Shown here piece by piece: positions 15,701-54,953 of a DNA stretch of 64,000 nt; position 1 is the first letter of the stretch, and every line of letters begins with the position of its first letter. The stretch is from Selenobaculum gibii (GTDB lineage: Bacteria > Bacillota > Negativicutes > ICN-92133). Position numbers and translations under genes: made by a program. The stretch covers positions 721,501 to 785,500 of the forward strand of contig NZ_CP120678.1 in the NCBI RefSeq assembly GCF_030273445.1. Direction: 5' to 3'. The notes below the pieces were generated by a model. That model saw only the letters and a program-made list of their open reading frames with translations, was not told the origin of the DNA and did no database searches.

Positions 15701-18700
15701 GCTACATCAGTGCTACTTGACATGAATAATAAAGATTTAATAATTAATGCAACTACTGATACACATACGACGGGGATAACGGCAATTGGCGATGGAAAAG
15801 TAGAAATTGATCATGCCGGTAAAATAACAATAAATACCGAAAGTACGGGTGGTGGGCAGACTGCTGCATTATATACCAATGGCGGTGGTCATATAGTCAT
15901 ACATAATGGGGGAGAAAACCTAGAAGATAAAGTATTGACGGTAAGAGCAAATACTACAAGTATCGCGAACGGTGCAGTAATTAAATCTATGAATGGAGTC
16001 GGCGGCAAAGAATCAAGTATTATTATTGATGGGCTTGTAGATGTAGTGGCAGACGGTAATGGTGATGCGAAAAATGGAAAAGGGGCAAATGAAGGCATCA
16101 GTGCAGTTGCATCGACGATTGAAATTGGTGGAGGTAGTATCAAAGCCGTTAACGGTGCTTGGTGTGCAATTCGTGCTTATGGAGAATTTGTTTCGAATAA
16201 TTACGGCACTGTAAACATCAATGTAGCGAAAGATGAACAGGGAAATATCATTGGAGCAGGCAAGAACAAGACTACGATTGAAGGTGCGATTGTAACAAAT
16301 GGTGGAATGGGAACGAAAGGTAGAGTGAGCATTGGATTAAGTACGCCAGACTCCTATTGGAAAGGTGATTACACAGATGTAACGGGATATGGTGTAACAC
16401 AGGGACAGTTGGGGAATGTGAATTTGTTTATGACCAATGGTGCAAACTGGACAGGATATACGAAAGGAACGATGAATGTTGATATGTCTAGCGGAGCAAC
16501 TTGGGAAGGATATAACGTTGGTGATAACTTCAATTTAAGTCTAAGCGATCAAGCTATTTGGAAAAATAATAATAAGACAGAAAATCCTAGCAAAGTCCAA
16601 TATTTAACTGGTGCTAAAGACAAAAATAAGATTGGCTATATTCAAATGACACAAGATGCTACGGCTAATTTGGTAATAGATAATTATAGTGGAAATACCT
16701 TAGCTTGGTATGATCATAATACAGCATCTCCGACAGAGCTAATTGGTGGTTCGATTACTGTAAAATCGGCAGCACCTGATTCGACAATGACGTTGTGGAC
16801 AGGAAACAACGGTGTTAATACAGCAACGAGTGCAACCGATGCAGAAAAAGAAACGCTGAATACAGTATTAGATAATTTGGCAAAGAAATTAATTTATACG
16901 GGCTATATAGGCAAAGCAGAAGAAAATTTGAAAGGGTATGTCGGTATTGCAGAAGGCATGACTTCATCTTCGGCGATAAAGAATAGTGAAATTAAATTCA
17001 GTAAAACAACCGGTGAGGGAAGTTATGAACATCAAATTACGCCACCGACTCCGCCTATTCCACCGGTAATACCAAGTGAATTTAATACGCCAATTGGGAA
17101 GGATAACGCTAATGATGAGTACAAGGATGTAATGGATGATACCGGAAGGACATATACGTTTACGAAAGATACTAAAGTCGATGTTGACGATACTAAACAA
17201 GTGGCTGACGGTGTTACTGCAGCAGTATATAGTAATAATAAAGACACTATAATTAATGCTGAAGGTAAAAATATTGTATTAGATGCGAATGGAACAGCAA
17301 ATAAATCTTATGGTATAGCTGCTACGGCTGAAAATAGCAATATAAATGTAAATGCGAGCAACGTGACAATTCATACATCCGGTAGCAATGAAAGTAGTGG
17401 GATCTATAGCGACCAGGGAAATGTAAGTATCATAAATAATATTTCAGTTCATGCGAAAAATGGGAATGGAATTTTAGCAAAGGATAATGGGAAAGTTACA
17501 ATTAATGGTGATGCTGATATTACTGTAGATGAAAATAATGCACAAGCAGTTTGGGCTTCTGCCGGCACGGTTGAAATAAAAGGTGATACCACGATTAATG
17601 CAGTTAATAAAACAGCACTGCTAGCCGAGGCAGGTGGTCAAATAAAACTTGATACAACGAATAAACGTGTGAATATCACAGGCGACATTGAAAATCATGG
17701 TGGAAGTATAGCGATTGTTCCAGGGGAAGATTCTGTAATTAAAGGCGCGATAAGAAATACAAGTGGTAATGTAGAAATTAGTTTAGGCAAGGGATCGGTC
17801 TTAGAAGGTGGCATTGAAACCGGATCTACTCAGAAAACTTTTTCGATGATGCGTAATGTATCAGCAGAGCCAATAACTAAACTTTCTTTAGTAGATGGTG
17901 CAATATGGAGGTTTAATGCAGATAAAGATGCTAATGTAAGTGACCTTGTTGGAGGAAGTAAAGGTCATGAAGGAATCATTGAACAAAAGTCTGCTCATGA
18001 GATTACTGCTCATACCTTTAGTGGTAATATGAATGTAAAATATGCTAGTACATATGCTGATGGAAATTTAATGATTAATGATAATCAGGGTAATTTTGTA
18101 ATTAATGGACTAAAAGCAGGTTCGAGTAATAACAGTATTACGATTTCTACTGATAATAATAATGTAAATGCATTGGATAATACTTCATGGGAAAAAACGT
18201 TAAACAGCTTGGCTAACAAAGTGCAATATAATGGCGTAATTAATGAAGATGGACGAGTAAGTAATTTGACTGGTATGGCAACTGTTAATGAAAGCATTAC
18301 TGCACCATCAGCAAAAGCAGAGATATTATTTAAAAATGGGACTGATAGCAATATAATAGATAAAATTACGTTTAATAATGGTTCAAGTGGAACTATCACT
18401 TATGGTGATTATGAAACTGCGGTGATGAGTGGAGTAAAATCTGCGATGACATCAGCTGCTATGGGATGGCGCACTGAAAATAACAATCTCATGAAACGTA
18501 TGGGGGATTTACGGTTATCATCCGGAGATGTTGGAGCATGGGCACGTATTTATAGAGGAAAATCTAGTAGTGATAAAAATAAAACCGATTATAAAGCAAA
18601 TTATAATACTGTTCAAGTTGGCTACGATAAAGAAGTCGATGGAAATTGGCGTGTTGGTACTGCGATAAGCATTATGGAAGGTGACAGCAGCTATCAATAT

Positions 18701-41273: not shown

Positions 41274-42560
41274 ATGGAAAACACAACACTTTTAGCAGGA
41301 ATTATATTTATCGTCATGTATATGTTTATTGTCTCAGAGAAAGTTCATCGTACTATTGTATCCATGCTTGGTGCGATATTGATGATTTTAACTGGTGTAA
41401 TTTCGCAGGAAGCAGCTTTACATCATATTGATTTTAATACGCTTGGATTATTGATTGGTATGATGATTATCGTTGCGATTACTGGGCAGACAGGACTTTT
41501 TAATTATATCGCAATTTGGTCAGCGAAAAAGGCGGAAGCGAATCCAATGCGAATCCTAATTTACTTAGCAGTGATTACTGCACTTTTTTCCGCGTTTTTA
41601 GATAACGTAACAACCGTGTTACTTATGGTTCCCGTCACTATTGGAATTACGAATAAATTACATGTAAATCCCATTCCTTATTTAATTGTGCAAATTATTG
41701 CATCAAATATTGGCGGAACCGCTACTTTGATTGGGGATCCTCCTAATATTATGATTGGGAGTGCGGTAAAGGAATTAACCTTTATTTCATTTATTAATAA
41801 CTTAGCATTGATATCAGCCATTAATTTAGGAGTTGTTTTGGTGATTTTAACTTTTTTGTATCGCAAACAATTGCGCACAACAGATGAATTAAAGGCTGAT
41901 TTAATGTCATTGAATGAAAAAGCTGAATTAAAAAATAAGTTGTTATTAAAAAAATGCTTGTCGGTTTTATCACTGACAATTTTAGGATTCTTTTTCCATC
42001 AGTTGGTTCATGTAGAATCTTCAACAGTCGCTTTAACAGGGGCATTTTTACTTTTATTAATTGCAAGTCGTGATCATAGTTTTATTGAACATGCAATGGA
42101 AAAGGTAGAGTGGACGACAATATTTTTTTTCGTGGGTTTATTTGTTGCAGTTGGCGGATTGATTGAGGTTGGTATTATCAAACAAATTGCTGTATATGGC
42201 ATAGAAATTACAGGGGGAGACGTAGCAAAGACGTCAATGTTGGTTTTATGGTTAAGTGCAATTGTATCGTCCTTTCTTGATAATATTCCATTTGTTGCAA
42301 CAATGATTCCGTTAATTCAAGATATGGGGAATATGGGTGTAAGTAATTTGGAACCATTGTGGTGGAGTTTGGCTCTTGGTGCATGTCTTGGTGGTAACGG
42401 AACAATTGTTGGAGCAAGTGCGAATTTGATTGTTGCGGGAATGGCTGCAGAGGCGGGACATAATATTTCATTTATGCGATATTTGAAGATAGGATTTCCA
42501 ATCATGACTTTAACGATTCTTTTATCGACTTTATATATTTATATGCGTTATTTAATATAA
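41274..42560 (+). CDS. ArsB/NhaD-type ion permease
   Basis: The 428-aa inner-membrane protein belongs to the ion-transporter superfamily. It has two inverted halves, each with a conserved signature: SAFLDNVTTVLLMVPVTIGI with GGTATLIGDPPNIMIGSAV, and SSFLDNIPFVATMIPLIQ with GGNGTIVGASANLIVAGMA. About eleven transmembrane segments are visible. The family includes arsenite exporters, Na+/H+ antiporters (NhaD), citrate and silicate-like transporters; the substrate cannot be decided. No arsenical resistance genes lie nearby, and nhaA is the nearest intact transporter, so cation exchange is as likely as anion transport. ATG 41274 follows AGGGGGAAAG. A strong terminator follows. Confidence 0.85.
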   Translation: MENTTLLAGIIFIVMYMFIVSEKVHRTIVSMLGAILMILTGVISQEAALHHIDFNTLGLLIGMMIIVAITGQTGLFNYIAIWSAKKAEANPMRILIYLAVITALFSAFLDNVTTVLLMVPVTIGITNKLHVNPIPYLIVQIIASNIGGTATLIGDPPNIMIGSAVKELTFISFINNLALISAINLGVVLVILTFLYRKQLRTTDELKADLMSLNEKAELKNKLLLKKCLSVLSLTILGFFFHQLVHVESSTVALTGAFLLLLIASRDHSFIEHAMEKVEWTTIFFFVGLFVAVGGLIEVGIIKQIAVYGIEITGGDVAKTSMLVLWLSAIVSSFLDNIPFVATMIPLIQDMGNMGVSNLEPLWWSLALGACLGGNGTIVGASANLIVAGMAAEAGHNISFMRYLKIGFPIMTLTILLSTLYIYMRYLI

Positions 42561-42564
42561 TCCT

Positions 42565-42604
42565 AAAAAAGAGTGTGCAAATCAATTTTGCACACTCTTT
42601 TTTA
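42565..42604 (+). terminator. Terminator after the permease gene
   Basis: AAAAAAGAGTGTGCAAA pairs perfectly with TTTGCACACTCTTTTTT (17 bp), loop TCAAT. Confidence 0.95.
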
Positions 42605-42709
42605 GAATTATATTAGAAAATATTTAAAATTACGTAGAGAAGAGGCTATTTTTCCTATTTATTTATTTTTTTGGTGATGATATTATAAGAAAATAATTTA
42701 TCTGATAAC

Positions 42710-42736
42710 TAAGGCTAAGACTCCTGCCTTCGATAA
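42710..42736 (+). promoter_or_regulatory. Candidate sigma-28 (flagellar/chemotaxis) promoter before the MCP gene
   Basis: TAAG (42710-42713), a 15-base spacer, and TTCGATAA (42729-42736) match the sigma-28 consensus TAAA-N15-GCCGATAA at 9 of 12 positions with exact spacing. It lies 92 nt before the likely MCP start, and MCP genes are classic members of this regulon. The same bases can also form a GGC/GACTCC...GGAGTT/GCC hairpin, so chance is not excluded. Confidence 0.45.
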
Positions 42737-42827
42737 GAGGGAGTTATGCCATGGGTACAGGCGATTGGTTAAATTATTAGATAAAGTAAAAATGAGTTTT
42801 TATTGGTTTCAAAGGGGAGGGGTTATT

Positions 42828-44495
42828 TTGTTTGCGAAAACATTAAAGGGAAAGTTAATATCAACTACATTGTTGTTATTTTTTATTGTATTGTTTATTA
42901 GTACTTTGATTATTGGAAATGTAGTAAAAGATCAAATGGAGTCTGTCTTGTTGGATAAATCTATGGAAACAGCACAAGAGATTGCTTCAAATCTTGATAA
43001 TATGCTGTTGAACACTACTATTCAAAGTGATGAGTTACAAAAATTTCTTGATGAAAAGGTAAGACAAGAAAACATTGTATATGCGGCAATTATTGATAAA
43101 AATGCAAAAGCTATTGCGCATAGTGATCATCAAAAAATTGGTAAAGTTTATGATGATGAATATACAATAGATGGTGCAGTTAAAGGAAATACAAAAACAA
43201 GTAGATTTTACGCTGATGTTCAACAAGTTTGGACTTATGATATTATGGTACCAATTTATCAAAATGGAGTACAAATTGGTGCTTTAGATATTGGAATACC
43301 TGAAAGAGGCGTTAGTGAAATTATTAATGAAATTATTATGATTCAGAGTATCTTAATTATTGTCTCTTTCATTGTTATAACGATTTTATTATTTGCTATT
43401 TTTAATAAATTGTTTATTCCTTTAAATGAAATTGTATTAATTATTAATAAGATTGGAAAATTGAACCTTATAAAAGATGAAAAGATAGATACTTTTGCAA
43501 ATCAAAATGATGAAATCGGCAGCATTGCAAAATCTTTAGAGAATATGCGTGTGAGTGTTGCAGAACTAGTGAAGGATATAATAGAAAACTCGAATAATCT
43601 TAGCAATTCAGTTGAAGATTTATCTAATACGGTATATGATGTGTCTGGAAAGGTAAATGTAATTACAACTTCAGTGCATGATATAGCAAATCAAATGCAG
43701 GAATCTAGTGCTGCTACAGAAGAAATTACAGCATCCATTGAAGAGGTTGAAGCTAATATTAGCATGCTTTCTAATAAAGCATCTGCCGGTAGTGATATGG
43801 CGGAAGAATGTAAGGAACGTGCAATTAAAGCACAGGAAAATAGTCAAATTGCTATTAATGAATCTCAAGATATTATTTCTAATAAGACTGAAAATATGGA
43901 AAAAGCAATTGAAGCAGGGAAAATTGTAGATAGTATAAAAGTAATGGCGGATACGATTGCAAGTATTGCCCAGCAAACGAATTTACTTGCACTAAATGCT
44001 GCAATTGAAGCTGCAAGAGCAGGCGAACAGGGAAGAGGCTTTGCAGTTGTTGCTGAAGAGGTACGGAAACTTGCAGAGCAATCGTCTAAATCGGTACTTA
44101 GTATTCAAGAAACGATTGAAAGAGTACAACATGCATTTAAAAGTAGTATTGATACAGGAAATGGAATATTAGAATTTCTGAATATTAATGTTCATAAGCA
44201 GTTTGATGCTTATGGCGAAACAGGTAAGCTTTATGCTGATGATGCTGAATTTGTAAGTAAAATGTCAGAAGAAATTGCTATGATGTCAGAAGATATTACG
44301 AATACTGTTAGCGAGGTTAGTAAGGCAATTCAAGTGATGACGGAAAATACACAAATTTCAAATAGTCATACGAAAACAATTAATGAAAATATGAATGAAA
44401 CAACAGTTGCACTAGAGAAAGTATCTAATACGGCATCTAAACAATTAGATTTGGCTAAAAAGTTAAATGATATGGTAAGAAAATTTAAAGTATAA
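42828..44495 (+). CDS. Methyl-accepting chemotaxis protein
   Basis: This 555-aa receptor senses a small ligand outside the inner membrane and signals to CheA. It has transmembrane 1 ([20 protein letters not shown]) and a periplasmic single-Cache-like sensor with [20 protein letters not shown] and [16 protein letters not shown]. Transmembrane 2 is [19 protein letters not shown]; a HAMP region and a long coiled-coil signalling domain follow. The hairpin tip is highly conserved ([20 protein letters not shown], then [18 protein letters not shown]). TTG 42828 is preferred because GGGGAGGGG precedes it; the in-frame TTG 42765 and ATG 42792 lack good sites. No other chemotaxis gene is in the window. 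The ligand is unknown; related Cache domains bind organic acids or amino acids. Confidence 0.9.
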
Positions 44496-44510: not shown

Positions 44511-44662
44511 CAAGTCACATTATAAAATTCTTTCAGTAAAATTTTATTCGATGATTAGGATTCAGATGGAGTAAAAACTTCATCTGAATCAAGTCTACTT
44601 TATTTTATAAAAGTGTTCCAAGGCTCGGATTATCATCGGATAAATTTTTATAATGTGACTTG
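44511..44662 (+). repeat. 152-bp inverted-repeat element (MITE-like or structured RNA)
   Basis: Terminal arms CAAGTCACATTATAAAA (44511-44527) and its exact reverse complement (44646-44662) enclose a second inverted pair. That pair is TTATTCGATGAT (44544-44555) with ATCATCGGATAA (44632-44643), mismatched only by a G-T pair, plus an inner hairpin GATTCAGATG/CATCTGAATC (44559-44590). The whole stretch can fold into one branched structure, followed by TTTTTATT. It holds no open reading frame. No clear target-site duplication is visible. Confidence 0.65.
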
Positions 44663-54028: not shown

Positions 54029-54766
54029 ATGCCGAAAAAGTGGAATGATTGGAAAAGTTATTGGGATAATGAAGAGGATTGGATGTATGCTTATGATGAG
54101 GAAAAACCATATAAAAAGGATCTGAAAAAGATTGCGGTTGCTGGGTCTGTTTTTATTGTTTTTTATGCCATTCAGGCATTCCATAATCCAACTGGAGAAG
54201 TTCTTAAAGAGTATACGAGAAATGTTCTGGAGTGGAAAATGGATTTTAAAGAAATTACACAGGGCGTTCAACAACATTTACCAAGTATTGATTCTGATAT
54301 ATTAAAGCATGCACAAGCGGTAATTGCTCGACCGACAAATCCTTACCAATATATGAATATTCCGGTAGAAGGAGAAATTGTCTCTAACTTCGGTTGGAAA
54401 GATGATGAAAAAGGCAAACCGCAGTATTGGCAGGATGGAATTGAGTATAAAGTACCTTTTGGAACGAAGATTAAAGCAAGTAGTACTGGAAAAGTAAAAT
54501 CTATTGCTCAAACTGAAGAACGAGGAAAAATGGTTGTTTTGTCTCATGCAAACGAGATTGAAACGGTATATGGATATTTAGAAGATGTAAAAGTAAGTGA
54601 AGGAGATCGTGTGACGCAGGGGCAAATCATTGCTACAAGTGGAAATAAAGTGCATACAGAAGAGCCAATGTTGTATTTTGGTATGCGTGAAAAGGGAATA
54701 TCTGTTAACCCAAGTGATAAGGTAAGACTTAATTCAAGTCAAGGTCTAAATTCATCTGAATCCTAG
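54029..54766 (+). CDS. SpoIVFA-like protein with degenerate M23/LytM domain
   Basis: The 245-aa protein has an acidic, Trp/Tyr-rich cytoplasmic start and one membrane helix (IAVAGSVFIVFYAIQAF). The C-terminal LytM fold reads GEIVSNFGWKDDEKGKPQYW, VPFGTKIKASSTGKVKSI and VKVSEGDRVTQGQIIATSG. The metal ligands of active M23 peptidases are missing: the H-x-G-I-D site reads QDGIEY and the terminal H-x-H reads MLYF. So it is a binding rather than cutting domain. A degenerate LytM protein directly before an M50 protease is the arrangement of SpoIVFA-SpoIVFB in spore formers, where SpoIVFA anchors and regulates the protease. ATG 54029 follows GGGGGTG at seven bases. Confidence 0.75.
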   Translation: MPKKWNDWKSYWDNEEDWMYAYDEEKPYKKDLKKIAVAGSVFIVFYAIQAFHNPTGEVLKEYTRNVLEWKMDFKEITQGVQQHLPSIDSDILKHAQAVIARPTNPYQYMNIPVEGEIVSNFGWKDDEKGKPQYWQDGIEYKVPFGTKIKASSTGKVKSIAQTEERGKMVVLSHANEIETVYGYLEDVKVSEGDRVTQGQIIATSGNKVHTEEPMLYFGMREKGISVNPSDKVRLNSSQGLNSSES

Positions 54767-54953
54767 CTATATTTATTTAATGATTGAGAAAATCACCCGT
54801 GCCCTATTAATATAATTCCCATTTCGCGAAGAGGCGAGCTTGTAATAGCGCGGAGTAATTTTTCATGTTGAATCGCTTATCTCGTTAGATAATATGGTTA
54901 GTCATTGAATAGAAGATTGACATTTAAAAATATGATAGGAGCGTGTATCTAGT

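Follow-up and report, generated by a model that had tools for sequence, protein, structure and literature searches.

We analyzed 64,000 nucleotides of the Selenobaculum gibii genome (NZ_CP120678.1, positions 721,501 to 785,500; hereafter the window), in which a nested palindrome of 152 bp follows the gene for a putative chemoreceptor (MCP), and we found that this palindrome is probably a composite. A terminator-like hairpin behind the MCP gene appears to have been invaded at a TTTAT by a small transposase-free element resembling the PATEs, which would be moved in trans by a Y1 transposase of the IS200/IS605 type. The element is repeated throughout the genome, has sharp TTTAT borders and covarying hairpins, makes no 5-bp target duplication, is missing from near-exact empty sites in Pelosinus genomes, and is shared by two bacterial classes. 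An earlier note on the palindrome had wavered between a mobile element and an RNA structure ending transcripts; both are apparently present, one within the other. The features concerned are as follows.

42765 to 44495, plus strand: putative chemoreceptor (MCP) open reading frame (ORF), named from the appearance of its sequence; it ends 15 nt before the palindrome
44511 to 44662, plus strand: whole nested palindrome, a terminator-like hairpin (arms 44511-44527 and 44646-44662) holding a 104-bp insert
44543 to 44547, plus strand: TTTAT, left border of the insert (target pentanucleotide)
44548 to 44603, plus strand: short copy of the dispersed element with module B only, including its own right-end TTTAT (44599-44603)
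44559 to 44590, plus strand: hairpin B, with 14-nt arms and a 4-nt loop, corresponding to the covarying helix 5 of a 55-copy alignment
44607 to 44644, minus strand: inverted remnant of a second copy; its minus strand opens with TTTATCCGATGA
44647 to 44651, plus strand: TTTAT, right border of the insert

The palindrome and its insert

The palindrome has the three levels first described for it. The outer arms agree at 17 of 17 bases, and at 88% when extended to 24 nt, the inner pair (44543-44555 and 44632-44644) at 12 of 13 positions, and the arms of hairpin B (44559-44572 and 44577-44590) are 93% complementary over 14. Besides, the suggested folding-energy check was clear: the folding energy of the 152 nt is -53.8 kcal/mol, compared with -22.4 (standard deviation, 3.6) for shuffled sequences (z -8.7), and none of 200 shuffles did as well.

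The arms and the core differ in distribution. In the 2,679,003-base genome the outer-arm 17-mer has no exact match other than its own two occurrences, and with up to three mismatches it has 13 forward and 12 reverse matches, where a reversed control pattern has 13 and 15. The 152-bp unit is single copy, its sole full-length match being itself, whereas the core repeats genome-wide; thus, the arms are confined to this locus and the core is scattered, and the further copies expected of a mobile element exist for the core only. BLAST gave 36 core matches including itself (E <= 0.001), mostly over query positions 45-95, and the 35 others represent 34 places, because one place was matched on both strands. 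A covariance model, for which 150 of 948 candidates were scored, gave at least 85 matches at E <= 0.01, with some places matched on both strands.

The insert, 104 bp with a TTTAT at either border, consists of the B-only copy, which is matched by structure model R1 at 44521-44604 (48.4 bits, E 7.5e-10), plus the inverted remnant of another copy. Read from 44644 on the minus strand, the remnant resembles the start of the element's module A, a likeness judged by eye; a minus-strand model match covers 44544-44644 (24.5 bits), and hairpin B also lies inside this match. The copy looks decayed. The earlier suspicion of a mobile element thus held, except for its borders, since the insert lies inside the outer arms. 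For the same reason, the apparent lack of a target duplication had been judged at the wrong borders.

When 44548-44651 is deleted and one TTTAT is left, the joined flanks read CAAGTCACATTATAAAATT-loop-AATTTTATAATGTGACTTG, then TTTTTATT; these 75 nt are predicted to fold (-23.9 kcal/mol) into a long hairpin whose tail is T-rich, 15 nt past the MCP stop. The outer arms are most likely a former transcription terminator, as judged from this predicted fold, and may once have worked as such. We also considered that the whole palindrome is an ordinary long MCP terminator whose arms grew palindromic by local mutation, with no mobile origin. The distance of 15 nt from the gene, the T-rich tail and the uniqueness of the outer arms would fit this, but the core belongs to a genome-wide family with sharp TTTAT borders, and as an account of the whole palindrome it is hardly credible. 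A non-mobile local origin of the core was refuted by the family match, and the idea stands for the outer arms only.

The full element and its conserved structure

An iterated profile over 30 loci revealed a longer unit, of which the window core makes up the right half. In full, the element measures about 130-150 bp and carries two subterminal hairpins and no gene. Its layout is unrelated flank, TTTAT, CCGATGACTAA..., module A, GGATAAG, module B, AAGTCT, a few bases, TTTAT, unrelated flank, where module A is a branched stem with an inner hairpin and module B is a hairpin of the form ...CAGATGGAG...CTCCATCTG.... In most copies the borders are sharp: the element opens with CCGATGAC... directly after the flanking TTTAT and closes with ...TTTAT. 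The left pentanucleotide lies outside the element, the right-end TTTAT is its own, and beyond the pentanucleotides the flanks are AT-rich and roughly even in composition. The earlier note had likened the palindrome to a miniature inverted-repeat transposable element (MITE). Mobility stands, but the element is not a strict MITE, because it lacks terminal inverted repeats (in the 55-copy alignment, read by eye, the left end CCGATGACTAA... and the right end ...TTTAT are not inverted copies) and the 17-bp arms in the window lie outside it, belonging to the host hairpin. Among copies of up to 175 nt, the full ones measure about 109-167 nt, too short for a transposase gene, and the longest composite is about 236 nt.

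TTTAT precedes 45 of 56 parsed copies and ATTAT 6, in a count that leaves out loci L095-L165, which were fetched by a pattern demanding a left TTTAT. With those loci taken in, 98 full copies were parsed; 75 have TTTAT at both ends, and the 23 others never carry the same non-TTTAT pentamer twice (ATTAT/TTTAT in 5 and TTTAT/TTGAT in 4). The right-end counts are to be read with search patterns in mind that favor TTTAT-like ends, and some tails of the 56-copy set are unparsed. A 5-bp target duplication is thus absent, although the data leave some room for a 4-bp duplication of TTAT. Tandem copies in Desulfosporosinus (L146 and L165) have one TTTAT in common. Copies without A or B look, by eye, like products of deletion between short direct repeats (GACTAA; AAGTC). 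In loci L111 and L112, an optional TATACCC..GGGCACAGG stretch of module A also occurs inverted in the apical loop, resembling a sub-element.

Covariation, proposed earlier as a check, was evident in an alignment of 55 copies, hand-chosen to cover the hosts and mostly drawn from 82 sequences (104 full hits cut by similarity). Standard pairs fill 94.3% of 2,185 cells, and pairing falls to 28-43% when the partner columns are slid by one to three. Doubly changed pairs number 21 of 40, against a mean of 10.1 in shuffles, none of 500 being as high; these shuffles ignore relatedness, and kin sequences may exceed them without structure, although rarely on double changes. Covariation is seen in helices 2-4, located toward the left end, and in helix 5, toward the right end. 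The outermost helix (TTATCC with GGATAA) is nearly invariant, giving no covariation support because it has no double change; such invariance is what a sequence signal would be expected to show. In hairpin B, columns 118 and 136 form no Watson-Crick pair in 41 of 55 copies (the pairing is non-standard in 25 and G-U in 16), and the neighboring pairs covary. This mismatched position is reminiscent of the mismatched hairpins recognized by Y1 transposases.

A strong fold, covariation and an intergenic position might also indicate a structured RNA, such as an attenuator or small RNA, that spread by duplication and was retained for its role as an RNA. Indeed, 31 copies were checked in the S. gibii genome (the window copy and, from the 85 matches, the 30 best), and all are situated outside ORFs of at least 100 amino acids, a rule by which the window is 88% coding. 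Covariation, however, is equally expected of a DNA hairpin bound by a transposase, and the neighboring genes of the 31 copies, tallied by orientation, are co-directional in 21 cases, divergent in 7, convergent in 1 and undetermined in 2. Furthermore, no Rfam family scored above its cut-off in the copies searched (sub-threshold microRNA matches were taken as chance hairpin likeness), and genomes 95-97% identical differ in the presence of whole elements, as described below. An RNA-level origin is thus very improbable.

Empty sites and host range

Empty sites of the kind that the earlier note had named as a test in related strains were found in Pelosinus, where genomes 95-97% identical differ by whole elements. 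Over 20 kb, genome G055 has four element insertions, one of them a composite of about 236 bp, that are absent from genome G005; the empty sites hold a single ATAAA (TTTAT in element orientation) in two cases and a single ATTAT in one, and the fourth is one base off the single-pentanucleotide pattern. At insertion E3, the empty site is CAATTATAAAAG and the filled site is CAATTAT-CCGATAAC...CTTCTTTAT-AAAAG, so that the left pentanucleotide, ATTAT, is the target's and the right one, TTTAT, is the element's. More distant genomes also lack E3 (from gap lengths) and E4 (G054, direct junction), which points to gain. E1 is a probable gain; E2 in G055 could not be polarized by outgroups, and E5 is common to both genomes. 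By these empty sites, the element was recently active in Pelosinus.

The composite (L232, 9550-9785) has a further palindromic stretch in its module A loop and about 30 matches in G005, some of them partial. We also noted an insert of about 140 bp found in G005 only (L258, about 15718-15859), unrelated to the element and situated beside an CTTCCGAATAT hairpin with CAGCATTTTCT on both sides, which may be another small mobile repeat, and an 83-bp stretch of another kind that is missing from G005.

Small repeats that carry no gene usually do not extend beyond a single genus or species group, bcr1 being an example. The present family ranges further. One query detected copies in 13 of 40 genomes from the class, S. 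gibii included; with a Pelosinus query (E <= 1e-10), they were found in 34 of 120, S. gibii again included, and in 22 of 64 genera. When named genomes were scanned by pattern, 71 stretches emerged. Their hosts include Sporomusa malonica, S. acidovorans, S. silvacetica, Pelosinus fermentans JBW45 and metagenome-assembled genomes of Massilibacillus and Pelosinus, and also Desulfosporosinus sp. PR and Syntrophomonas wolfei subsp. methylbutyratica. Two classes are thereby represented, Pelosinus belonging to the Negativicutes, and Desulfosporosinus and Syntrophomonas to the Clostridia. Some genomes hold dozens of copies, and no element match was found in viral contigs, phages or plasmids.

Between Desulfosporosinus and Pelosinus, the two most similar copies are 93.2% identical along their entire length, an identity that suggests transfer between classes; in a drawn tree, which was not used as a test, copies mostly cluster by host. 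Sporomusa malonica copies are 96-100% alike, and by this measure the element was recently active there too. The nine S. gibii copies in the alignment are at most 73.5% identical to each other. The family thus looks young elsewhere and mostly old in the S. gibii genome.

The window holds three element sites, two of which lie outside the palindrome.

42697 to 42807, plus strand: module-A-type copy at the 5' edge of the MCP ORF (model R1, 34.8 bits, E 1.6e-6)
54717 to 54913, minus strand: third, diverged copy (model R1, 34.8 bits, E 1.7e-6)

Because the copy at 42697-42807 overlaps its 5' edge, the MCP ORF has the element at either end, and the gene probably starts further downstream than the listed TTG. 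Between this gene and an ORF ending at 42560 is a 19-pair hairpin (42563-42605) that is terminator-like on both strands.

Known systems and the candidate mobilizer

According to their description, PATEs lack terminal inverted repeats, make no target duplication, carry palindromes near their ends and are too small for a gene, and those of Haloquadratum walsbyi occur in many copies, with deletion derivatives at direct repeats (PMC3119063). The element shares all four anatomical features, the many copies and, apparently, the repeat-mediated shrinkage; however, the palindromes of PATEs resemble those found in IS605-type transposons (PMC3119063), whereas the element was found without such a transposon, and its copies are common to two bacterial classes. 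Group A IStrons of the IS200/IS605 type, among them the IStrons of Megasphaera and Megamonas, insert 3' of TTGAT, ATTAT or TTTAT (PMC4227781). They and their IS200/IS605 kin share with the element insertion 3' of a pentanucleotide, subterminal palindromes and the lack of a target duplication, but both encode transposase genes and group A IStrons end in TCAG (PMC4227781), unlike the TTTAT end of the element.

Closest in size and TTTAT habit is bcr1 of the Bacillus cereus group, which is described as a MITE-like intergenic repeat of 147-167 bp with a TTTAT motif and a conserved predicted structure, and is reported to be restricted to that group (PMC6542083, PMC2267715, PMC3446304). The likeness is one of description, and two element queries had no similarity to any of 72,556 plasmid records, bcr1 copies among them. 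REPINs are also non-autonomous hairpin DNA with tandem clusters, but a REPIN is an inverted doublet of one REP and REPs adjoin their RAYT (PMC3116915), whereas the element has two unlike hairpins and frames none of the Y1 genes examined. Among the open-licence papers listed for repeats of these taxa and for TTTAT elements, none describes the family as far as its title and the opening of its abstract show, and we regard the family as a new one within a known kind of repeat.

Because of its TTTAT/ATTAT targeting, end hairpins, lack of terminal inverted repeats and travelling right pentanucleotide, we favor transposition of the IS200/IS605 type, and the element probably works like a PATE, with a Y1 transposase as its putative mover. 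A Y1 (HUH) transposase supplied in trans would read the hairpins in single-stranded DNA and cut after TTTAT at each end, and the strand would be pasted 3' of a new TTTAT or ATTAT, so that the left pentanucleotide would stay with the target and the right one would move with the element. In the window, the target would have been a TTTAT in the 3' arm of an AT-rich terminator-like hairpin 3' of the MCP gene, and what is retained would be a B-only deletion derivative of the two-hairpin element beside the inverted remnant of a second copy. We infer the enzyme, the single-stranded route, the former terminator function of the outer arms and the arrival of the window block by that route.

Several results weigh against this explanation. 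The transposase with the same terminal repeats for which the earlier note proposed to look did not appear: none of 29 distinct Y1 loci (26 from 30 loci taken out of 45 PF01797 matches in nine genomes, one of them entered twice, the other 15 matches lying outside the sample, plus three from the S. gibii genome) bore element ends in a scan with an element profile built from those 51 of 55 excised elements that measure 110-165 nt. The flanks scanned were up to 1.5 kb, so that the far end of a longer element could escape notice. The lone profile match was a decayed copy about 300 nt from the broken IS200 of the S. gibii genome, not its end, and the IS200/IS605 loci L166, L168 and L169, read by eye, had no matching ends. 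Besides, Desulfosporosinus sp. PR, a draft genome with copies, has no PF01797 match above the cut-off. The replication-strand bias expected of IS200/IS605 is also absent, with 63 of 131 matches co-directional with the fork in four genomes: S. gibii (of 85 matches, the 53 with at least 40 bits), G005 (35 of 93), G023 (15 of 62) and G050 (28 of 54; apparently the same assembly as G033), the last three represented by listed matches of 8-kb queries that cover the element. By their GC skew, the sampled loci are consistent with an origin near coordinate 0; another IS605 set is likewise described as lacking strand bias, at 10 of 22 (PMC7290912).

Other points concern particular sites. G052, G053 and G056 lack the element that P. 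fermentans JBW45 has at L156, but G035, which is more distant, carries an eroded copy there, and gain and loss both fit. TTTTAT stands on both sides of the window block and fits either order of events; thus, the block may have arrived as a single composite or in two steps. At the window locus in relatives, within up to 1.5 kb either side of maf (three loci being shorter), no MCP match was found in any of 29 loci, of which all 29 have maf, 28 orf89 and 26 radC; this leaves the window locus with no counterpart for comparison. A simple terminator scan (loop limit, 8) did not report the terminator-like hairpin of the palindrome.

The missing Y1 partner among the loci examined, the lack of strand bias and the copy-bearing genome without PF01797 above the cut-off would suit a different mover of the same mobile element, namely a TTTAT-specific recombinase other than Y1, as has been loosely proposed for bcr1. 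Such an enzyme is possible but unlikely: the left and right pentanucleotides are unlike in 23 of 98 parsed copies, one empty site has the target's pentanucleotide on the left and the element's on the right, as in the IS200/IS605 pattern, and hairpins are present at both ends.

Two RAYT-like Y1 genes of the S. gibii genome (L092 and L093), which carry their own ends, of the GACGGTTCTTTTTGTC and GGGGACGTTCCTTTTTTGTC types, were rejected as mobilizers. Similar stretches lie near an insertion sequence of P. fermentans (L168); these sequences are probably a separate repeat family.

Movement in trans by a Y1 transposase remains the explanation that we prefer for the element. As a more speculative and rather doubtful extension, transposase-free hairpin elements bounded by TTTAT in the Bacillota, i.e., the present family and perhaps bcr1, might form one mechanistic class served in trans by an enzyme, of the host or of a mobile element, other than the usual IS200/IS605 TnpA, and would cross classes without an autonomous partner. 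The insertion would explain the striking palindrome of the window, and the set of filled and empty sites is tractable for testing the movement of TTTAT-bounded repeats such as bcr1. Furthermore, what looks like a long palindromic "terminator" in one of these genomes may in fact be a composite formed by insertion.
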